From assembly GCF_035818615.1 (NCBI RefSeq), contig NZ_JAYKZY010000001.1:474501-538500 (forward strand): 64,000 nucleotides of DNA, in the 5' to 3' direction. Below the pieces are notes generated by a model, which was given only the letters and a program-made list of their open reading frames with translations, was not told the DNA's origin and made no database searches. Shown here one piece after another: positions 7,999 through 33,064 of this stretch. Position 1 is the first letter of the stretch, and each line of letters opens with the position of its first letter. Made by a program: the position numbers and the translations under genes. The DNA is from Sphingobium sp. CR2-8 (GTDB taxonomy: Bacteria; Pseudomonadota; Alphaproteobacteria; Sphingomonadales; Sphingomonadaceae).

Positions 7999-10900
7999 GC
8001 CGGCACTCCTGCGTCGGGGGTTTGCGCAGGCGGCGGCGCCTTGGCTTTGGCCCTGTCGCTACCGAACAGGCTGGCGATGGTGACGAAGAACAGGGGCACG
8101 TAGAATATCGCCAGCACCGTTGCCGTCGTCATGCCGCCGATCACCGCCGTGCCGATCGCGACGCGGCTCTGCGCGCCTGCACCGGTCGCGATCGCCAGCG
8201 GAATGACACCGGCGATGAAGGCGAGCGAGGTCATCAGGATCGGGCGGAAGCGCAACCGTGCCGCCTCCAGCGCGGCCGACAGCGCATCCTTGCCCTGCTT
8301 GTGCGCCAGTTCGGCAAATTCCACGATCAGGATCGCATTCTTCGCCGCCAGACCCATGGTGGTGAGCAGTCCGACCTGGAAGAAGATGTTATTCTCCAGC
8401 CCGCGCGCCCACACCGCGATCACCGCGCCGATCAGGCCGAGCGGGATCACCAGCAGCACCGCCAGCGGGATCGACCAGCTTTCGTAGAGCGCGGCGAGGC
8501 ACAGGAAGACGACCACCACCGACAGCCCATAAAGCAAAGGCGCCTGTCCGCCCGACAATTGCTCCTGATAGGACAGGCCGCTCCAGGCATAGCCGGTGCC
8601 TGCGGGAAGCTGCTTCTGCAATGCCACCATCCGATCCATCGCGTCGCCCGAACTGGCGCCCGGGCCGGCCTGTCCCTGAAGCTCGAACGACGACAGGCCG
8701 TTGAAGCGCGCCACGGTGCTGGGCCCAACGGTCCAGTGCGTCGTTGCAAAGGCGGAAAAGGGCACCATCTGCCCGGTGCTGCTCGACCGCACCATCCAGT
8801 TGTCGATGTCGGTCGGCAGGGCGCGGTAGGGCGCGTCGGCCTGCATGAACACGCGCTTCACGCGGCCACGATCCAGGAAATCGTTGATATAGGTGCTACC
8901 CCAGGCGGAACTCAGCACATTGTCGACATCGCGCTGGGTCAGGCCCAGTACGGCCAGCTTTTCATTGTCGATATCGACCTTGAGCTGCGGCGTATCTTCC
9001 AGGGACGCGGCGCGCACGCCCGCCAGCATCGGGTCTTTGGATGCGGCGTCGATCAACTGGTTGCGCAGTTCCAGGAAGCGTGCGCGGCTGAGGCCGCCAT
9101 TGTTGAGCAGCTCGAAGGTGAAGCCGTTCGATTGGCCCAGACCGCGAATGGCAGGCGGCGTCATGCCCAGCACGCGCGCATCGCGGATGGCGGCGAGCTT
9201 TTTGGTCGCGCGTCCGGCGATGGCCACCGATGTGTTCACCGCGCCCTTGCGATCGTCCCACGGCGCCAAGTTGATGAAGCCCTGCCCGACATTTTCGCCC
9301 TGCCCCTGAAAACTGAAGCCGGTCATGATGAAGGCGAAGGCGACATTGTCCTTTTCATCGTTCAGGAAATAATTCTGCACCTGGTCGATCACCGCGCCGG
9401 TCCGGCTGGACTTGGCCCCGGCGGGTAGCGTCACCTGCACCATGACCTGCCCCTGGTCCTCGACCGGCAGGAAGCTGGAGGGCAGCCGCACGAACACCAG
9501 AATGAGGATCGCCAGAACCACGACGTAAAGGCCCCAGAATAGTTTGCGCCGCTCCAGCATCCGCCCTGTCTTGCGGACATAGCCATCGGTCATTCGCCCG
9601 AACCAGAGATTGAACTTGCCCGCCCATCCCTTGTCGCGATGCTCATGGCTCACGGGTTTCAGGAGCGTCGCGCACAGCGCCGGGGACAGGATCAGCGCGA
9701 CCACCACCGACAGCAGCATCGACGACACGATGGTGATCGAAAATTGCCGGTAGATGACGCCGGTAGACCCGCCGAAGAACGCCATGGGCAGCAGCACCGC
9801 GGACAGGACCAAGGCGATGCCCACCAGCGCGCTGCCGATCTCCGCCATCGACTTGATCGTCGCCTCGCGTGGGGACAGCCCCTCTTCCTCCATGATGCGT
9901 TCGACATTTTCCACGACGACGATCGCATCGTCCACCAGCAGGCCGATGGACAGCACCATCCCGAACAGGGTCAGCGTGTTGATCGAATAGCCGAACAGGG
10001 CAAGGATGCCGAACGTGCCCAGCAACACCACCGGCACGGCGATGGCGGGGATCAACGTCGCGCGCCAGCTCTGGAGGAAGACGAACATCACGACGACGAC
10101 AAGGCCGACCGCTTCGATCAGGGTCTTGACGACTTCTTCCACCGACAGCTTGATGAAGGGGGTGGTGTCGCGGGGATAGACGACCTTATAGCCATGCGGC
10201 AGGCTGGCCGATAATTCGGCGACCTTGGCCTTCACCAGTTCCGCGGTCTTGAGCGCGTCGGCGCCCGGCGCCAGTTGCAGCGCGACGCCCGACGCCGGAT
10301 GCCCGTTCAGCCGCGCTGCGGTGGTGTAGCTTTCGTTGCCCAGTTCGACGCGCGCGACGTCGGACAGATGCACGATCGACCCGTCCGTCTGGGTCTTGAC
10401 GATGATGTTGCGAAACTGTTCGGGGGTTTGCAGGCGCGCGCGCGACGTGACGGTCGCGTTGATCTGCTGCCCTGCGGGCGCGGGGTCAGCGCCGATCTGC
10501 CCCGCCGATATTTCGATATTCTGCGCGGCGATCGCGGTCTGGACGTCTGACGGCATCAGCTTGACGGCCGCCAGCTTATAGGGGTCCAGCCAGATGCGCA
10601 TGGCATATTGCGACCCGAAAATCTGGGTCGCACCGATGCCATCGATCCGCGCAATGGGGTCCTGGAAGTTATTGACCAGATAGTCGGCGATGTCCGCCTG
10701 CGTCGCCGTGTCGGTTTCGTCGTACAGGCCGACCAGCATCAGGAAGTCGGTCTGCTGTTTGGTGACGGACAGGCCTTGCTGCTGCACCTGGTTGGGCAGG
10801 CGACTGAGCGCCTGCTGCACCCGGTTCTGCACCTGCACCTGTGCGGTGTCGGGATCGGTGCCTTTCTGGAAGGTCACGGTGATCGACGCGCGCCCCGTCG

Positions 10901-22113: not shown

Positions 22114-22181
22114 ATCACCAGACAATCTACGGATTTCACTTTATATTCAGGTGCGTGGAACTAGGCAGGCGAACCCCGCCC

Positions 22182-23744
22182 ATGTCCGGAGACATCAGAA
22201 TTTTGCTGAAATTTGCGCGAACGGCCTTTTCACTGTCATGCTTTCTGGCTGTCGCCCTTCCCGCCACAGCACAAGCCGCAACCTATTATTTCAACGCGAT
22301 CACGGGCGACGATCGTTTCAGCGGTGCGACCGAAACGCAGGCCTGGAAGTCGCTGTCGCGCATCCGGGACATGCCGCTCCAGCCCGGCGACCAGATATTG
22401 CTGGCGGCCGGATCGACATGGCGCGAGCCGCTGACCATCACGCGATCGGGGAAAGCGAATGCGCCGATCGTCGTCGCCGCCACGGGCGTCGGGCCACGGC
22501 CGCGGATCGACGTGGGCGGCGTATCGCCACATGCCGTGGGCGTGCTGAACGCCGAATATGTGCGCATCAGCGGTCTGGAAGTGACCAACGACGCCATCGC
22601 GCCATCCCAGCGTTTCGGCGTCTTGGTGTCGGCGCAGGACCGGGGCGTGACGCGCGGCATCCGTATTACCGACATGTATATCCACGACGTGCGCGGCCTC
22701 AACGATCGCAAGGATAATGGCGGCATCGTGTTCCAAGCCATCGGCAAGCGCCTGGCCACCCGCTTTCACGACCTGCGGATCGAACGCAATATCGTCTGGC
22801 GGGTCGATCGGTCGGGCATTGCGGGCATCAGCGACCGGGTGACGGCGCTGAACTGGTTCCCCAGCGACGACGTCGTCATTCGCGACAATTATCTGGAGGA
22901 TGTCGGCGGCGACGGCATCGTCCCGCGCGGCACGGACGGCGCGCTGATCGAACATAATATCGTGCGCTACGCCGGCAGCCGCGCGCCCGGCTATAATGCC
23001 GGCATCTGGCAGTGGAGCACCGACAACAGCCTGATCCAGCTGAACGAGGCGGCCTATACGAAGACCCGCTATGACGGGCAGGGTTTCGATTCCGATTTCA
23101 ATTCGCGCCGCACGACCCTTCTCTACAATTACAGCCACGACAATGCGGGCGTGTTCCTGCTCATCTGTTCCCCCAGATATGGCGGCGCGGACAATCTGGG
23201 CAATCGTGGCACGGTCGCCCGTTTCAACGTCAGCCGCAACGACGGCACGCGCATTTTCCAGCTGTCGGGCAATGTGTCCGACGCGCAGGTCGAACATAAT
23301 GTCGTCCATGTCGGCAAGGGGATGGATGTGCAGATGATCGTCGCCACCCAATGGGACGGGTGGGCGCGCGACGTCCGCTTCAACGATAATGTCTTCAAGG
23401 TCGCGGGCACGGCGCGCTATGGCAGCGAAGTGGGCCGGTCCGGTCCCAATTATCTGATCAAGCCGGGCTTCGACGCGGTCGAATCCCTCCGGTTCAAAGG
23501 CAACAGCTATATCGGCCGCCATGTCGATCCGCCGCAGGACGGTGTCGGCCAGCCCTACATCCCCTATGTCGAACAAACCGCCGATTGGCAGGTGCCGCTG
23601 TTCGATCCCGCCAAGCCCGATGGCTTTACCGACTTCATCATCCGGCACCGGGTCTGGATGGTGACGATGCTGGAACGCGAACTGCAAGCGAAGGTAGCAC
23701 TCAAGCAGCCGCGACGGACATCCATCTTCGATACGCGCCGATAA
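22182..23744 (+). CDS. Secreted right-handed parallel beta-helix protein
   Basis: 520 residues with a signal peptide (about 1-33, ending ATAQA). It then begins TYYFNAITGDDRFSGATETQ, the usual opening of pectate-lyase-superfamily beta-helix proteins. Repeated rungs follow with motifs such as VRISGLEVTN, IERNIVW, IRDNYLEDVGGDGI and IEHNIVRYAG. Proteins of this shape are often polysaccharide lyases or hydrolases, but no catalytic residues can be assigned by eye. I started at ATG 22182 because the signal peptide follows; an upstream GTG in frame adds nine implausible residues. It lies downstream of a TBDT, separated by a hairpin, so joint use of one glycan is possible but unproven. Confidence 0.8.
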   Translation: MSGDIRILLKFARTAFSLSCFLAVALPATAQAATYYFNAITGDDRFSGATETQAWKSLSRIRDMPLQPGDQILLAAGSTWREPLTITRSGKANAPIVVAATGVGPRPRIDVGGVSPHAVGVLNAEYVRISGLEVTNDAIAPSQRFGVLVSAQDRGVTRGIRITDMYIHDVRGLNDRKDNGGIVFQAIGKRLATRFHDLRIERNIVWRVDRSGIAGISDRVTALNWFPSDDVVIRDNYLEDVGGDGIVPRGTDGALIEHNIVRYAGSRAPGYNAGIWQWSTDNSLIQLNEAAYTKTRYDGQGFDSDFNSRRTTLLYNYSHDNAGVFLLICSPRYGGADNLGNRGTVARFNVSRNDGTRIFQLSGNVSDAQVEHNVVHVGKGMDVQMIVATQWDGWARDVRFNDNVFKVAGTARYGSEVGRSGPNYLIKPGFDAVESLRFKGNSYIGRHVDPPQDGVGQPYIPYVEQTADWQVPLFDPAKPDGFTDFIIRHRVWMVTMLERELQAKVALKQPRRTSIFDTRR

Positions 23745-26931: not shown

Positions 26932-27059
26932 TCGGCAATCGACGGTTAGCGCTCGCACTTATTGATGCAAATCAGGATCGCACAAGCTTGCGTCAGGAAC
27001 CTGCTTTCCTTGCAAAACAATCGCTAGCGATATGATCGCCATCGCTTTAGGCGGTGGGC

Positions 27060-30000
27060 ATGGCAATTGGCAAAACAGCTTCGGCGTCGCGTGCTTCCAT
27101 CTGGTCGGCTTTGGGTTTGCTCCTTGGCCTGGCCTTCTTCCTGGCCAGCGGCACGATAGCCTATCGCAATATCCAGACCCTGCGCGAAAGTGACCAGGCG
27201 GTCCGCCATACCCACGCCGTCCTGATCGCGTTGGACGACCTGCTGTCGGCTGCGCAGGACGCGGAAACCGGGCAGCGCGGCTATCTGCTCACCGGCAGCC
27301 AGGGTTATCTCGAACCCTATAACAGCGCGGTGGCGGGCTTTGGCCAGCGCCTGCAGGCGGTCGCGCAGCTGACGCAGGACAATCCTGCCCAACAGGCCAA
27401 TGTCGGCGTCCTCAAACGGCATGCCGACGCCAAGCTGGCGGAATTGCGCGAGACGGTCGAACTACGCCGCACCAGGGGCATCGCCGCCGCCCTGGACGTC
27501 GTGACGACCGATCGCGGCAAGATGGAAATGGACGCCATCCGCGCGCAACTCAACATAATGGCGCAGGAAGAACTGCGCCTGCGCGCCATCCGGCTGGAGG
27601 ATATGGCCATCGCGTCGCGCACCGCCATCACCACCGGCATCGTCACAAGCCTGATCGGTGCGGGCCTGACCATCGCCGTCTTCCTGCTCCTGCGCATCGC
27701 CAACCGCGCCCGCGTGCGGCAACAATGGCTCCAGGCCGGTCAGCTCGGCCTTGCCGCCGCCATGCGCGGCGAAAAATCGGTCGAGGAACTGGGCGAGTCG
27801 ATCCTCGCTTTCCTTGCCAATTATCTCGGCTTTCAGGGCGCAGCGCTGTTCAAGGGGAAGGGGGGCGCTTCCAGCGCGCCGCGACGATCGGCATACCGGC
27901 GGACGCGGACATTCCCGACGGCTTCATGGTCAAGGAAGGCCTGCTGGGACAGGTGGCGGCGCAGGCCGAGCCGTTGGTCCTGCACGACATTCCCGATGGC
28001 TATCTGACGATCGGATCGGCGCTGGGCCGCGATCGCCCCCGCCATCTGGTCATTATGCCTGCAAAGGCGGACGAGATCGTCAACGCCGTCCTGGAACTGG
28101 GCTTTTTCCAGCCGGTCGACCCCGCGACGCTGGAATTGCTGGACCATGCCGCCCCTGCGATCGGCATCGCCCTGCGTTCCGCCCGCTTCCGGGCGCGGTT
28201 GCAGGACGCGCTGGAGGAAACCCAGCGCCAGTCCGGCGAATTGCAGGCGCAGAGCGAAGAACTGCGCGTCTCCAACGAGGAACTGGAGGAGCAGGGCCGC
28301 GCGCTCAAGGAATCGCAGGTCCGGCTGGAACAGCAGCAGGTCGAACTGGAACAGACCAACAGCCAGTTGGAAGAACAGGCCCAGACGCTGGAAAACCAGC
28401 GCGACGAGCTGGAACGCGCCACCGGCACGCTGCAATTGAAGGCGCGTGAACTGGAGCAGGCGAGCCAGTATAAGTCCGATTTCCTCGCCAACATGTCGCA
28501 TGAATTGCGCACGCCGCTCAATTCGCTGCTGATCCTCTCGAAGCTGCTGGGCGACAATCCCGACGGCAACCTGTCGCACGATCAGGTCAAGTTCGCGCGC
28601 ACGATCGAATCCTCGGGCAATGACCTTCTCACCCTCATCAACGACATTCTCGACCTGTCGAAGATCGAGGCCGGGCATATCCAGATGCAGCCCGAAACCG
28701 TGCCCCTGCAACGGCTGACCGGCGATATCCGCCAGATGTTCCAGCCTGTCGCCGAAAGCCGGGGCCTGACGTTCGACATCGCCATCGCGGCCGATTGCCC
28801 CCGCGCGATCGAAACGGACCGGGTGCGGATCGAACAGATCATCAAGAACCTGCTGTCCAACGCGTTCAAGTTCACCGAGCAGGGGACCGTCGGCCTGACC
28901 CTGTCTTGCGTCGGCGACGACCGACTGGCGCTCGCGGTGCGCGACACCGGCATCGGCATGTCCCAGGAACAGCAGAGCCATATTTTCGAGGCGTTCCATC
29001 AGGCCGACGGGACCATCAGCCGCCGTTATGGCGGGACGGGCCTTGGCCTGTCGATTTCGCGCCAGCTCGCGCGCCTGCTGGGCGGCGCCATCACGCTGGA
29101 GAGCGAGCCGGGCCAGGGCAGCGCCTTCACCCTGACCGTGCCGCTTGTCTATGATCCCGCAGGGGTCGCGCCGCACGACGCTGCGCCACCGGCCCGCGCC
29201 GAACCCGCCGTCGCTCCTGCGCCACCGTCCAGCGCCGTGCCGTCCCGCAGGGCGCCGCAACCCGATTGGGTCATGGAGGATGATCGCGCCACGCTTGCGG
29301 AGGGTCGCCGCCTGCTGTTGGTGATCGAGGATGACCAGGTGTTCGCCTCGATCGTGTGCGACCTGTCGCGCGACATGGGCTTCCAGTGCATCGTCGCGGG
29401 CACGGCGGAAGAAGCGGTGAAGCTGGCGCGCGATTACAAGCCCAGCGCGGTCGTGCTCGACCTCGGCCTGCCCGACCAGTCGGGCCTCACCGTCCTCGAC
29501 CGGTTGAAGCATGACGACGCCACGCGGCACATCCCGATCCATGTCGTGTCTGCGTCCGACCATAGCCAGGCCGCCCTGTCGCTGGGCGCGGTGGGCTATC
29601 TGGTGAAGCCGGTGAAGCGCGAACAATTGGCCGAAGTGCTGGAAAGCCTGCATGCCAAGCTGGCGACGCGGGTGCGCCGCGTGCTGATCGTGGAGGATGA
29701 TCCGGTGCAGCGCGACGCCGTCGCCCGGCTGCTGCTGACCGACGAGGTTGAGACGGTCGGCGTCGGCACGGCGGCGGAATGCCTCGAACAGCTGCGCCAG
29801 CAGACGTTCGACTGCATGGTGTTGGACCTGACGCTGCCCGACACGTCCGGTTTCGCGCTGCTGGAGACGCTGAGCGAGGAGGGGGATCATGGCTTCCCGC
29901 CGGTCATCGTCTATACCGGCCACGACCTGTCGCCCGACGACGAGCAGCGCCTGCGCCGCTATTCCAGCTCCATCATCATCAAGGGCGCGAAATCGCCCGA

Positions 30001-30493
30001 GCGGCTGCTGGACGAAGTATCGCTGTTCCTGCACCAGGTGGTGTCCGAACTGCCGCCTGAGCAGCGCAAGATGATCCAGAAGGCACGTAACCGCGACGCC
30101 GCGCTGGAGGGCCGCCGCATCCTCATCGTGGAAGACGATGTCCGCAACGTCTATTCGTTGACCAGCGTCCTCGAACCGCGCGGGGCGTCCGTGCAGATTG
30201 CGCGCAACGGGCAGGAAGCGATCGATGCGCTGGCGGCGTCGGCGGACGATCCGGCGCAGGCCATCGACCTGGTGCTGATGGACGTGATGATGCCGGTGAT
30301 GGACGGCCTCACTGCCACCCGCGCGATCCGCGACGATATGCGCTGGGCGAATCTGCCGATCCTGATGCTGACGGCCAAGGCGATGCCCGACGATCAGCAG
30401 CGTTGTCTGGAGGCGGGCGCCAACGACTATATGGCAAAGCCCATCGACGTCGACAAACTCCTCTCGCTGGTGCGCGTATGGATGCCACGCTAG
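27060..30493 (+). pseudogene. Hybrid sensor histidine kinase CHASE3-GAF-HisKA-HATPase-REC-REC-REC, split by a one-base frameshift
   Basis: Frame one (27060 to a stop at 28005-28007) encodes TM1 (about 12-35), a CHASE3 sensor (about 40-175), TM2 (about 182-204) and the start of a GAF domain, then nonsense after residue 268. A second frame continues the GAF domain without loss, then a long Glu/Gln-rich coiled coil (about 385-460), HisKA with MSHELRTPLN (His near 481), HATPase (about 590-700) and three receivers starting near 750, 873 and 1019 (VVLDLGLPD, MVLDLTLPD, VLMDVMMPVMDG). One extra G in the six-G run at 27860-27865 restores 1144 residues. The cause may be a real mutation, phase variation, -1 frameshifting or a sequencing error. 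It is followed by cheR, cheB and a REC-kinase gene. Confidence 0.85.
27860..27865 (+). repeat. Six-G homopolymer at the frameshift site
   Basis: The run follows AAGGGGAA inside the GAF-coding region. In the zero frame it reads G GGG GGC, a permissible -1 slippery heptamer, and it is also a typical indel hotspot. One added G joins the two kinase frames exactly. Confidence 0.7.
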
Positions 30494-31329
30494 TGCAAGA
30501 CCAGGTGCAGAACGGCGTGGAGGATATAGAGATTCAGCTGCTGCTGGAGGCACTGTACCAGCGCTATCATTATGACTTCCGCCATTATGCGCGCGCCTCG
30601 ATCAAGCGTCGACTGTTGCAGGCGCGCGGGCAGCTGGGTTTCACCAGCTTCTCGGCGATGCAGGATCATCTGCTGCACGATCCCGCGACGCTGCCGCGCC
30701 TGCTCAACTATCTGACCGTACAGGTCAGCGAGATGTTTCGCGATCCATCCTATTTCCGCGCCTTGCGGGAAAAGGTGATTCCGCACCTGCGCACCTATCC
30801 CTCGCTCAAGGTCTGGGTCGCCGGATGCAGCAATGGCGAGGAACTTTATTCCCTCTCCATCCTCTTTCGCGAGGAGGGGCTGGACCAGCGCACGCTTTTC
30901 TACGCGACGGACATCAACCCCAATGCCCTGCGAGCGGCGGAGGCCGGGGTCTATCCGCTGGACCAGATCCGCAAATTCACCGAAAACCACCAGAAGTCGG
31001 GCGCACGCTCGTCGCTGTCGGACTATTATACCGCCGATTATGGCCGCGCCGTGTTCGACAAGAGTTTGCGCGCACAGGTCGTCTTTTCCGATCATAGTCT
31101 CGTGACCGATGCGGTGTTCGCGGAAATGCATCTCATTTCCTGTCGCAACGTCCTCATCTATTTCGACCGCGACCTTCAGGACCGGGCGCTCGGCCTGTTC
31201 AGCGAGTTGCTCGCGCGCAAGGGATTCCTGGGCCTGGGGTCGAAGGAAAGCCTGCGCTTTTCGAACCACGCCGCCGCCTTTGCGGACTTCGTGCGCGAAG
31301 AAAAAATCTACCAGAGGCAGCAGCCATGA
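30478..31329 (+). CDS. CheR-type protein-glutamate methyltransferase
   Basis: 283 residues. The N-terminal helical CheR domain includes YHYDFRHYARASIKRRL. The SAM-binding domain has WVAGCSNGEELYSL, YATDINPNAL and ISCRNVLIYF, all standard CheR motifs. CheR methylates glutamates on chemoreceptors using S-adenosylmethionine. Its ATG at 30478 lies inside the last codons of the hybrid kinase (16-nt overlap), and its stop overlaps cheB. No chemoreceptor, CheA or CheW is near, so its substrate is unclear; the glutamate-rich coiled coil of the upstream kinase is one candidate. Confidence 0.92.
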   Translation: MDATLVQDQVQNGVEDIEIQLLLEALYQRYHYDFRHYARASIKRRLLQARGQLGFTSFSAMQDHLLHDPATLPRLLNYLTVQVSEMFRDPSYFRALREKVIPHLRTYPSLKVWVAGCSNGEELYSLSILFREEGLDQRTLFYATDINPNALRAAEAGVYPLDQIRKFTENHQKSGARSSLSDYYTADYGRAVFDKSLRAQVVFSDHSLVTDAVFAEMHLISCRNVLIYFDRDLQDRALGLFSELLARKGFLGLGSKESLRFSNHAAAFADFVREEKIYQRQQP

Positions 31330-31901
31330 CGGCGCATCCCCTTCAAGCCATCGCCATCGGCGCGTCGGCAGGCGCGGTCCAGGCGCTCCTTCGGATATTG
31401 CCGGCGCTCCCCGCCGATTTTCCCCTGGCGGTGCTCATCGTCGTGCATGTCCCGCCCGATCGCGGCAATGCGCTGGTGTCGCTGTTCCAATCCAAATGTC
31501 CGTTGCCCGTCAAGGAGGCGGAGGATAAGGAGCGCATCGTCGGCGGCACCGTCTATTTCGCGCCATCGGACTATCATCTGCTGGTCGAGGCCGATCATGC
31601 ACTCGCCCTGTCCTGGGACGAGCCGGTGAACCACAGCCGCCCGGCGATCGACATATTGCTGGAAACGGCGGCGGATGCCTTTGGTCCGGCCTTGACCGGC
31701 ATCGTCCTGACCGGCGCCAATCATGACGGCGCGGCGGGCCTGGCGGCGGTCGCGGCGGCCGGTGGCGCCGCCATCGTGCAGGATTTCGCCGAAGCGCAAG
31801 TGCCCACCATGCCCCAAGCGGCTCTTGCGGCCTGTCCGGCCGCCCATATGATGACGCTGGACGCCATCATCCTCCATCTTCAAAAGCTGGCGACCCTATG
31901 A
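31326..31901 (+). CDS. CheB-type methylesterase domain protein without receiver domain
   Basis: 191 residues containing only the CheB catalytic domain. The triad is Ser14 (IGASAG), His41 (VVHVPPDR) and Asp134 (GANHDGAAG). Canonical CheB has an N-terminal receiver of about 130 residues that gates activity, and it is absent here. The enzyme would remove methyl groups from, or deamidate, Glu/Gln side chains. Overlaps of 4 nt with cheR and with the next kinase gene show tight co-translation. Regulation may come from the separate receivers in the adjacent kinases. Confidence 0.92.
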   Translation: MTAHPLQAIAIGASAGAVQALLRILPALPADFPLAVLIVVHVPPDRGNALVSLFQSKCPLPVKEAEDKERIVGGTVYFAPSDYHLLVEADHALALSWDEPVNHSRPAIDILLETAADAFGPALTGIVLTGANHDGAAGLAAVAAAGGAAIVQDFAEAQVPTMPQAALAACPAAHMMTLDAIILHLQKLATL

Positions 31902-33064
31902 CGATCGAAACGCAACCCATCCATTGCCTGCTGGTCGACGACCTTGAGGAGAATCTGCTCGCGCTCGAAGCGTTGCTGCGACGCGACGGCCTTGTCTGCC
32001 TGAAAGCGCGATCAGGCGAGGAAGCGCTTGAACTGTTGCTCGTCCATGACGTCGCCCTCGCTTTGCTCGACGTCCAGATGCCCGGCATGGACGGGTTCGA
32101 ACTGGCCGAATTCATGCGCGGCAACGAACGCGCCCGACATGTCCCCATCATCTTCGTGACCGCAGGCAGCGCCGATCGGCAACGGCGGTTCCGCGGGTAT
32201 GAAGCCGGCGCGGTGGACTTCATCCAGAAGCCGATCGAAGCCGACATCCTGCGGTCGAAGGCCGACATCTTCTTCCATCTCTACGATCAGCGGCGTCAGA
32301 TCATCGCCCAGCGCGACGAATTAGCGATGCTCGCCGCCGCCTTGAAGGCAGCGGACCAGCGCAAGAACGAATTTCTCGCGATCCTCGGCCATGAACTGCG
32401 CAATCCGATCGCGGCGCTGGGCGCGGGGCTGCACCTGCTGGAGCGACGCGAAGGGACGGACGCGGCGCGCGACATTCGCGGGCGCATGGACCGCCATGTC
32501 CAGCATCTCTCCCGTCTGGTCGAAGACATATTGGACATCGCCCGCATCGATCAGGGCAAGATTTCGCTTAAGACGCAACGCATCTCGCTGCAGGAGGTCC
32601 TATCCTTCGCGGTGGAGGCCAGCCAACCTACGATCGAGGCCGCGCAACACCGGCTCGTCCTCGACATCGTCGAGGAACCCGTCTTCCTCGACGCCGACTA
32701 TGCCCGCGTCGTCCAGATCACCAGCAACCTGCTCAACAATGCGGCGAAATATACGCCGCCGGGCGGCGACATTCGACTGACCGCGCGGGTGGTCGATGGC
32801 TGGGCGGAGATCGAGGTCGCCGACACCGGCATCGGCATCGCACCCGACATGCAGGCCCGCATTTTCGACCTGTTCGCGCAGGTGAAGAACCCGACCGGCG
32901 ATCCGCAGGAAGGGCTTGGCATCGGGCTGGCGCTCGTCCGGCAACTGGTCGCGTTGCATGGCGGCGCGCTGTCGCTCAAGCAGAGCATTCCCGGCGAAGG
33001 CAGCGTCTTCCAGGTCCGCCTCCCAACGGCCGAGGCCTTGGTATCGGACGCGGCGATTCTGTAG
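31898..33064 (+). CDS. Receiver-histidine kinase hybrid (REC-HisKA-HATPase)
   Basis: 388 residues, cytoplasmic. The N-terminal receiver has DDLEEN, phospho-acceptor Asp58 (ALLDVQMPGMDG) and Lys111 (FIQKP). A short coiled coil leads to HisKA with His165 in ILGHELRNPI, then an ATPase with NLLNNAAKYTPPGG, DTGIGIAP and GLGIGLALV. A kinase whose own receiver is N-terminal is typically controlled by phosphotransfer from another kinase, here plausibly the CHASE3 hybrid. It is the last gene of the four-gene operon. Confidence 0.93.
   Translation: MTIETQPIHCLLVDDLEENLLALEALLRRDGLVCLKARSGEEALELLLVHDVALALLDVQMPGMDGFELAEFMRGNERARHVPIIFVTAGSADRQRRFRGYEAGAVDFIQKPIEADILRSKADIFFHLYDQRRQIIAQRDELAMLAAALKAADQRKNEFLAILGHELRNPIAALGAGLHLLERREGTDAARDIRGRMDRHVQHLSRLVEDILDIARIDQGKISLKTQRISLQEVLSFAVEASQPTIEAAQHRLVLDIVEEPVFLDADYARVVQITSNLLNNAAKYTPPGGDIRLTARVVDGWAEIEVADTGIGIAPDMQARIFDLFAQVKNPTGDPQEGLGIGLALVRQLVALHGGALSLKQSIPGEGSVFQVRLPTAEALVSDAAIL

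Follow-up and report, generated by a model that had tools for sequence, protein, structure and literature searches.

On which protein do a CheR methyltransferase and a CheB methylesterase act when their genes stand in one operon with histidine kinases? In chemoreceptors, adaptation through reversible methylation of Glu residues is known. The operon considered here lies in a stretch of 64,000 nt (hereafter referred to as the window) from Sphingobium sp. CR2-8 (GCF_035818615.1, NZ_JAYKZY010000001.1, positions 474,501-538,500 of the forward strand).

Organization of the operon and the break in the kinase frame

ORF and Pfam analyses placed, in the segment 27060-33064, genes for a hybrid kinase, a CheR, a CheB without a receiver and a REC-kinase, in this order, with overlaps of 16, 4 and 4 bases. 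They confirmed the overlapping four-gene order, CHASE3-GAF-kinase-REC3, CheR, receiver-less CheB and REC-kinase, that had been described in an earlier, sequence-only reading. The features are as follows.

27060..27857, + strand: N-terminal part of the hybrid kinase, with CHASE3 and the start of the GAF region (frame 27054-28007; PF05227, E 1.3e-42)
27855..27866, + strand: G-rich run at which the kinase frame is lost in the present assembly (ORFs; relatives with uninterrupted copies)
27866..30493, + strand: C-terminal part of the hybrid kinase, with the remaining GAF, the coil, HisKA, HATPase_c and three REC domains (frame 27725-30493)
28184..28474, + strand: Glu/Gln-rich coil from GAF to the phospho-acceptor His (His codon 28499-28501)
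28214..28282, + strand: candidate methylation tract in the coil (near-invariant Glu in 74 gap-free coils; putative modification)
30478..31329, + strand: CheR-type methyltransferase of the kinase-linked clade, starting with ATG (Pfam PF03705 (CheR_N) and PF01739 (CheR); tree)
31326..31901, + strand: receiver-less CheB methylesterase domain, Ser-His-Asp retained (Pfam PF01339, E 6.8e-54)
31898..33064, + strand: REC-HisKA-HATPase_c protein, in the position of cfcD (Pfam)

The Pfam matches in frame 27725-30493 were GAF_2, HisKA, HATPase_c and, in three stretches, Response_reg. A counterpart of the REC-HisKA-HATPase_c protein is also next in order in nine family orthologues and in L041.

The domains of the CHASE3-GAF-kinase-REC3 protein were found as previously read, but not in a single intact frame: in the window assembly the kinase occupies two frames, with the switch near the G-rich run at 27855-27866. 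The ten relatives compared (the nine orthologues and L041) have an unbroken kinase of 1140-1282 aa, and the more distant relatives L228 and L263 have a kinase that is likewise split. If the gene were truly frame-shifted, the module would be inactive in the window strain. The break in the assembly is what this reading has in its favor; we consider it unlikely, given that the sequence is conserved on either side of the break, that the remaining three genes are intact, and that CheA in the che cluster of the genome shows a similar split within the same assembly, a pattern expected for indel errors. Because CheA is also split, we regard an error of the assembly as more probable than a defunct kinase gene.

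Conservation of the kinase-CheR linkage and of the coil

The operon is widespread, with related gene sets in many bacteria. In 152 of 170 loci, a coil/GAF kinase was encoded on the same strand as CheR and within 4 kb upstream of it; the loci are not independent, because several of them come from one genome. The other 18 loci had too little upstream DNA (nine), no such kinase (eight) or no CheR of the operon type (one). Four CheR residues were kept in 170 of 175 loci. CheB was missing within 1.5 kb in 42 of the 175, some of which are contig ends or broken frames. Where CheB was scored, its Ser-His-Asp triad was kept in 130 of 133 loci, so that reversal by CheB, and with it adaptation, may be possible in operons of the window type.

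The sequence of the coil is strongly conserved. Its mean identity between the window and the nine orthologues was 86%, higher than that of HATPase (68%) or CheR (77%); against Sphingobium cupriresistens (L229), all 92 residues of the part encoded by 28190-28465 were identical, with 29 codons changed synonymously. Within the tract, Glu codons at 28214-28219, 28238-28240, 28256-28261 and 28277-28282 recur at a spacing of seven residues and correspond to heptad positions b and c in a register set with Leu at d. Glu pairs with this spacing were nearly invariant among 74 gap-free coils, position c of four successive heptads being Glu in 69, 71, 73 and 71 of the 74 rows. The eight b/c columns of the tract had a mean entropy of 0.45 bits, and the 12 at 38-74 one of 1.97 bits, in a set of rows chosen by a filter that itself constrained columns 30-34 (N, then E/D/Q, any, L/F, E/Q). 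The window tract has Gly instead of Glu at one b position, so that its own heptad run is two.

We then compared kinases for runs of two or more [EQ]E-[LMT] heptads, after 136 of 387 kinase-domain matches had been dropped (no H-box, a short upstream part, or identical). Such runs were present in 140 of 156 CheR-linked kinases, a class that takes in eight kinases with CheR 1.5 to 5 kb distant, and were found in 9% of shuffled coils of the 148 nearest linked kinases, in 1 of 86 other kinases and in 4 of 15 unlinked kinases of the subfamily (2/9 and 2/6 in two sets); the profile that picked the kinases for this comparison itself includes the coil. A Fisher test of 140/156 linked against 2/9 unlinked kinases gave p 1.3e-5, with kinship ignored and a small unlinked group. 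The possibility that the tract is exclusive to CheR-linked kinases was rejected, since the four unlinked kinases with such a run have no CheR on the same strand in their loci. The sole run of three among the unlinked kinases (L163) comes from G609, a genome in which a linked pair is present as well, and L092, one of the nine unlinked kinases, with a run of one, has a CheR adjoining on the opposite strand.

The coil had also been likened to the methylated helices of MCPs. A Glu/Gln-rich coil before HisKA and Glu pairs spaced by seven are indeed present, but the likeness does not extend to the classic MCP methylation consensus, [ASTGC]2xx[EQ]2xx[ASTGC]2, which matched none of 148 linked kinase coils. 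This comparison is a weak one because just one of the genome's own five MCPs matches the consensus.

The coil might instead be a purely mechanical signaling helix, with CheR and CheB modifying the kinase elsewhere, the REC-kinase or another partner. Unlinked sister kinases, which also have a HisKA-adjacent coil and retain one or two Glu pairs, are compatible with this explanation, as is the REC-kinase gene often seen, though not counted, next to CheR. We nevertheless judge it improbable: the tract is proximal to GAF, and within this coil its b and c positions vary far less than the b and c positions outside the tract. In addition, no CheR was present in the fetched loci of three subfamily kinases in which something else replaces the coil (L169, L171 and L172), and RsbM is reported to methylate the signaling helix of RsbK (PMC4574943).

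Relation to chemotaxis

No MCP, CheA or CheW ORF was found in the 64 kb window with the genome's own MCP, CheA and CheW genes as seeds. The earlier statement that these genes are missing holds for the window but not for the genome, which has five MCP, two CheR, two CheB and two CheW-domain matches in total, and a separate che cluster (L022) on another contig with its own CheR and REC-CheB. Among 75 genomes tested that carry a CheR of the operon type, 71 also had MCPs. The remaining four (G248, G356, G295 and G693) gave no MCPsignal or CheW-domain match. A survey of gene order in genomes that lack chemotaxis genes had been suggested as a check; in these four the kinase-CheR pair was present, and in three of them CheB adjoined it. 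An MCP-like ORF was seen in 8 of the 170 loci, in some of them near the operon. In L054 it lies upstream of the kinase at a distance of ~0.9 kb, and it is also close in L092, L097, L108 and L110; Pfam confirmed MCPsignal in both loci scanned, L054 and L110.

A further six of 241 class-sample genomes were CheB-positive and MCP-negative, as picked by comparing two lists by eye. The fetched CheB loci of these genomes contained no kinase operon: CheB-CheR was in long ORFs in G055, G152 and G155, and CheB with or without a receiver was found in G005, G120 and G104, the last of which has CheR, CheB and CheA-like genes together. These six genomes are therefore without relevance to the kinase operon.

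We examined the relationships of CheR in a tree of 66 sequences, from which two fragments (from L023 and L258) had been removed beforehand and in which long rows were present and B. cereus RsbM was absent. One side of a branch with an SH-aLRT of 98 (a quick method) held 43 operon CheRs, six Bacillota CheRs, three CheB-CheR fusions of ~560 aa and the long-branch row L129; the other side held seven chemotaxis CheRs and six CheRs from other fusions. The window CheR thereby falls together with that of L249, a Bacillota sigB cluster of RsbK-RsbM layout, which encodes REC-SpoIIE, kinase, CheR, REC-HK-REC, STAS, HATPase_c_2 and a sigma factor; REC-SpoIIE was also seen in L244.

That the operon enzymes are a second adaptation pair for the genome's chemoreceptors, linked to the kinase by co-regulation only, accords with the five MCPs, with the MCPs of the 71 genomes and with the few loci having an MCP-like gene nearby, but is very unlikely in view of the four kinase-CheR genomes without MCP and CheW-domain matches, the separate che cluster with its own enzymes, the position of the operon CheRs apart from chemotaxis CheRs, and the statement in PMC4951495, citing another study, that involvement of CfcB/CfcC in chemotaxis has been ruled out in P. 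putida.

Known relatives and a proposed mechanism

The window operon belongs to a known type, that of RsbKM and of the Pseudomonas cfc/bmsA cluster. The substrate idea is likewise already published, in that a CheR relative is reported to methylate a CHASE3-GAF hybrid kinase (PMC4574943; PMC4951495 and PMC8175716 for the cluster). According to PMC4574943 and PMC12848376, RsbK is a hybrid kinase with CHASE3, HAMP, GAF, a signaling helix, HisKA and one REC, its output in the Bacillus cereus sigB cluster, RsbK-RsbM(-RsbY), is REC-SpoIIE/sigB, and RsbM is called an orphan with no cognate methylesterase, deletion of the sole CheB being said (data not shown) to leave sigB unaffected. The window shares with this system a CHASE3-GAF-coil-HisKA-REC hybrid kinase, albeit frame-broken as assembled, upstream of a stand-alone CheR. 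It differs in having three REC domains and a dedicated CheB, and no sigB partner or REC-SpoIIE gene was recognized beside it in the list of neighboring ORFs.

In Pseudomonas, the cluster is known as cfcABCDE of P. putida (PMC4951495) and bmsA/3082 (PMC8175716). It has the window's order of CHASE3/GAF hybrid kinase, CheR, CheB and second kinase, and our Pseudomonas loci L187-L192, including P. putida L191, showed the window architecture. The P. putida cluster, however, is described as comprising five genes and as having the diguanylate cyclase CfcR as its output, and no partner of this kind was noticed beside the window operon. According to unpublished results mentioned in PMC4951495, P. putida mutants of the other cfc genes still show the crinkle phenotype, for which CfcA is required. 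The open-licence literature yielded no report of CheB acting on a kinase in such a cluster, and the available parts of PMC6849547 and PMC12471899 held nothing further on methylation. Canonical chemotaxis adaptation (CheR, REC-CheB, MCP) uses the same enzyme families and catalytic residues, whereas the window module has no MCP, a CheB without receiver, a CheR across the tree and a coil without the classic consensus. Single-chain CheB-CheR-kinase fusions also join the two enzymes with signaling domains outside a che cluster, but in one long chain and with a CheR across the tree from that of the window.

The proposal that the kinase itself is the substrate is well supported, though indirectly, by the linkage in 152 of 170 loci, the four MCP-less genomes, the grouping with the sigB-cluster CheR and the RsbM precedent (PMC4574943). 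Since related gene sets are also present in a few genomes that yielded no chemoreceptor gene, the pair most likely tunes the kinase, by analogy with RsbM. The coil is the likely site, because the RsbM/RsbK precedent and the MCP-less genomes are joined by the nearly invariant Glu pairs and by the heptad runs that accompany CheR linkage.

We therefore favor, as the probable reading, a self-contained sensory kinase module with a coil that CheR would methylate at Glu residues and CheB would demethylate. CHASE3 and GAF would sense the signal, and the HisKA/HATPase core would phosphorylate its own REC domains and probably also the REC of the fourth gene product and outputs elsewhere. The dedicated CheR would methylate Glu residues in the coil between GAF and HisKA, for which the pairs encoded by 28214-28282 are the best candidates. 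Methylation may alter coil packing and bias the kinase towards off, as suggested by the action of RsbM on RsbK. The dedicated CheB would strip the methyl groups and make the setting reversible; having no receiver, it would not be switched by phosphorylation of its own. Gene content, gene order and their conservation, the presence in genomes without an MCP or CheW-domain match, the catalytic residues and the conservation of the coil are directly seen; we infer which Glu residues are involved, in which direction methylation shifts the kinase of the window, and what CheB does.

A broader reading, which we put forward tentatively and hold to be somewhat doubtful, is that of a portable device that gives histidine kinases methylation-based adaptation, distributed across many phyla and present on conjugative plasmids. 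CheR and a CheB independent of phosphorylation would here write and erase methyl groups on a tract of Glu pairs, four heptads long, in the coil of the kinase itself, and sensory adaptation would need neither receptor arrays nor feedback from CheA to CheB. For RsbK, methylation of a kinase is reported without a dedicated eraser (PMC4574943). If the CheB of these operons does reverse methylation, a large group of hybrid kinases, including some that govern biofilm, c-di-GMP or stress responses, would have receptor-style adaptation built in. For testing this, the genomes with no MCP or CheW-domain match are a clean background, and the conserved Glu pairs name the residues to target.

The operon and the chemotaxis genes of its genome

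Analysis of open reading frames (ORFs) and Pfam domains bore out the domain assignments of the sequence-only reading and gave the following features:

27060-33064, + strand: operon of four genes with overlapping ends
First gene of the operon, + strand: hybrid kinase with CHASE3, GAF, a long coil, HisKA, HATPase_c and three REC domains
Near 27855-27866, + strand: loss of frame in the kinase gene at a G-rich run in this assembly
ATG at 30478, + strand: CheR methyltransferase
Third gene of the operon, after CheR, + strand: CheB catalytic domain without a receiver
Last gene of the operon, + strand: REC-HisKA-HATPase protein (the second kinase)

The operon itself proved to be real, but the kinase could not be retained as a single frame, being split at the G-rich run. 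The CheA gene of the genome's own che cluster (locus L022, 10773-13138, on contig C2 of G000, the window's own genome) is likewise broken, into pieces of 401 and 502 aa in two frames, so the assembly appears to contain indel errors. Nine other orthologues and, at a greater distance, locus L041 carry the four genes in this order with an uninterrupted kinase frame; L228 and L263, which are also farther away, have a split kinase too. The absence of a chemoreceptor, claimed at first for the operon, holds for the module but not for the genome: a genome search returned five MCP, two CheR, two CheB and two CheW-domain matches, and the che cluster (MCP, CheR, REC-CheB, CheY, CheW and CheA) lies on a separate contig.

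Distribution and plasmid carriage

In 10 of 149 family genomes, the window's own included, a CheB shares 60% or more identity with that of the operon; neither of the two further genus members sampled has one at this level, and the next family matches reached at most 43% identity among those listed. Of the plasmid records, 388 gave a CheR match at 1e-20, with identity reaching 60% or more in 73, and each of the four regions opened belongs to a plasmid of conjugative type. The annotation of Rhizorhabdus wittichii RW1 plasmid pSWIT01 includes the whole operon, that of the Neorhizobium and Pararhizobium plasmids its first three genes followed by one further gene. On pTK1 of Sphingobium sp. TKS (L182), an IS3-family transposase gene occupies the expected place of cheB (9135-10498). 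The operon looks portable. An ORF at 22155-23744, which ends 3.3 kb before the window operon, shares 60% identity over 490 residues with a right-handed beta-helix protein whose gene lies near the operon on pTK1 (L182, 549-2099).

At E ≤1e-40, the operon-CheR profile matched 108 of 398 phylum genomes, and no score fell between 219 and 182 bits, which divides the matches into high and low. The low-scoring matches, taken as a group rather than singly, lie nearly all within long ORFs, which fits CheB-CheR-kinase fusions. Among 103 listed high-scoring places, two were already in the set, 78 were fetched and 23 were left out; the 78, with two low-scoring loci, make 80 phylum-sample loci. A scan of species genomes contributed 80 named loci, the best of at least 588 relatives (at least 593 stretches), which include Pseudomonas putida, Xanthomonas, Caulobacter, Rhizobium, Clostridium and Paenibacillus as well as Verrucomicrobiota, Planctomycetota, Acidobacteria, Bacteroidota, Cyanobacteria and Myxococcota. 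With ten further loci (the nine orthologues and L041), the total was 170.

A kinase with coil and GAF lies on the same strand within 4 kb upstream of CheR in 152 of these 170 loci, those sharing a genome not being independent; the other 18 have too little upstream DNA (nine), no such kinase (eight) or no CheR of the operon type (one). CheB lies within 1.5 kb of CheR in 133 of 176 sequences (175 loci and the window), 42 lack it, some of them at contig ends or with broken frames, and one has no CheR of the operon type.

The glutamate tract of the kinase coil

For the coil that joins GAF to HisKA, identity to the nine orthologues averages 86%, above HATPase (68%), REC1 (72%) and CheR (77%) and near HisKA (91%) in the same comparison. 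Against Sphingobium cupriresistens (L229), 92 of 92 coil residues are identical although 29 codons differ, all synonymously. With the heptad register set by Leu at d, four heptads in a row have Glu at c in 69, 71, 73 and 71 of 74 gap-free rows (73 of 148 linked kinases, i.e. those with a same-strand CheR, and the window); columns 30-34 were constrained in choosing the rows, which accounts for part of their constancy. The preceding position b is usually Glu too, the window having Gly at one b. Mean entropy, worked out by hand, was 0.45 bits over the eight b/c columns of the tract (window 28214-28282), versus 1.97 over twelve b/c columns at 38-74.

We compared 251 kinase domains, 136 others being dropped. 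Two or more [EQ]E-[LMT] heptads in succession were present in 140 of 156 linked kinases of the subfamily, but in only 2 of 9 unlinked ones and 1 of 86 other kinases; shuffling the coils of the 148 nearest-linked kinases left such runs in 9%. Of six additional unlinked members of the subfamily, all plasmid-encoded, two had them. The long Glu tract thus accompanies CheR, whereas one or two pairs can persist in its absence. The classic MCP methylation consensus was found in 0 of 148 linked coils, and in only one of the window genome's own five MCPs. On plasmid p1 of Streptomyces fungicidicus (L270), a HAMP-containing kinase of this subfamily adjoins SpoIIE and STAS genes, in a locus with no CheR match.

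Candidate substrates and the proposed role of CheB

MCPs are present in 71 of 75 genomes with an operon-type CheR (12 further such genomes were left out). The remaining four (G248, G356, G295 and G693), for which the tool gives a completeness of 99 or 100%, have no MCP and no CheW-domain match in a search that returned the two of the window genome. An MCP therefore cannot be the CheR substrate there, unless one was missed. Three of these four (G248, G356 and G295; loci L032, L035 and L041) encode the kinase, CheR, CheB and second kinase. G693 (L070) has kinase and CheR without CheB, as does an additional pair in G248 (L162). MCP-like ORFs occur in 8 of 170 loci, close to the operon in L054, L092, L097, L108 and L110; the two scanned (L054 and L110) are both MCPsignal by Pfam. 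In L054, L097, L108 and L110, such a gene is possibly a receptor partner in those lineages. Its place in L097, L108 and L110 is after the second kinase and a small ORF of REC or CheB-like type.

Ser-His-Asp is kept in 130 of 133 CheBs, and 170 of 175 CheRs have Arg/Asp/Asn/Tyr (positions from the alignments), residues that we take to be catalytic or binding; the operon CheR and CheB thus look active. The CheRs of L059, L070, L240 and L255, all loci without CheB, have Glu for Asp in the ATDIN motif. In a tree of 66 CheRs, one branch (SH-aLRT 98 by a quick method, a support less safe with long rows present) separates the operon CheRs, six Bacillota CheRs, three CheB-CheR fusions of ~560 aa and the long-branch row L129 from seven chemotaxis CheRs and another six that belong to other fusions. 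Five of the Bacillota CheRs share the layout of L249 (Bacillus sp. FJAT-27264), a sigB cluster of REC-SpoIIE, kinase, CheR, REC-kinase-REC, STAS, anti-sigma type ATPase and sigma factor (SpoIIE verified for L249 and L244); the sixth, L261, has a single-REC kinase and no recognised sigB genes.

Bacillus cereus RsbK is a hybrid kinase with CHASE3, HAMP and GAF; the CheR-type RsbM is reported to methylate its signalling helix and to hold the pathway off, with no known cognate CheB, and 127 RsbK-like kinases are mentioned from 10 phyla (PMC4574943; PMC12848376). Both systems pair a CheR-type enzyme with a hybrid kinase; the window operon has a dedicated CheB. The equivalent cluster of P. putida is cfcABCDE (PMC4951495), and a like cluster is mentioned as adjoining a bmsA orthologue (PMC8175716). 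The arrangement, and the methylation chemistry on such a kinase, is already known for relatives.

The proposal that CheR and CheB modify the kinase itself, giving adaptation outside chemotaxis, was a good guess as to the substrate. By analogy with RsbK and from coil conservation, CheR most likely methylates the Glu tract; the methylated coil would pack differently and bias the kinase, probably towards off as in RsbK. The gene neighbourhood and the kept catalytic residues suggest that CheB removes the methyl groups. Without a receiver, it would receive no phosphorylation feedback from the kinase, so that adaptation would have to arise from substrate conformation or enzyme levels. The dedicated CheB may turn kinase methylation into an adaptation system. 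In eight loci (L121, L123-L128 and L130), CheB and CheR form one protein of about 560-620 aa between the two kinases, and several kinase coils of this branch contain 21-residue repeats rich in Gln/Glu.
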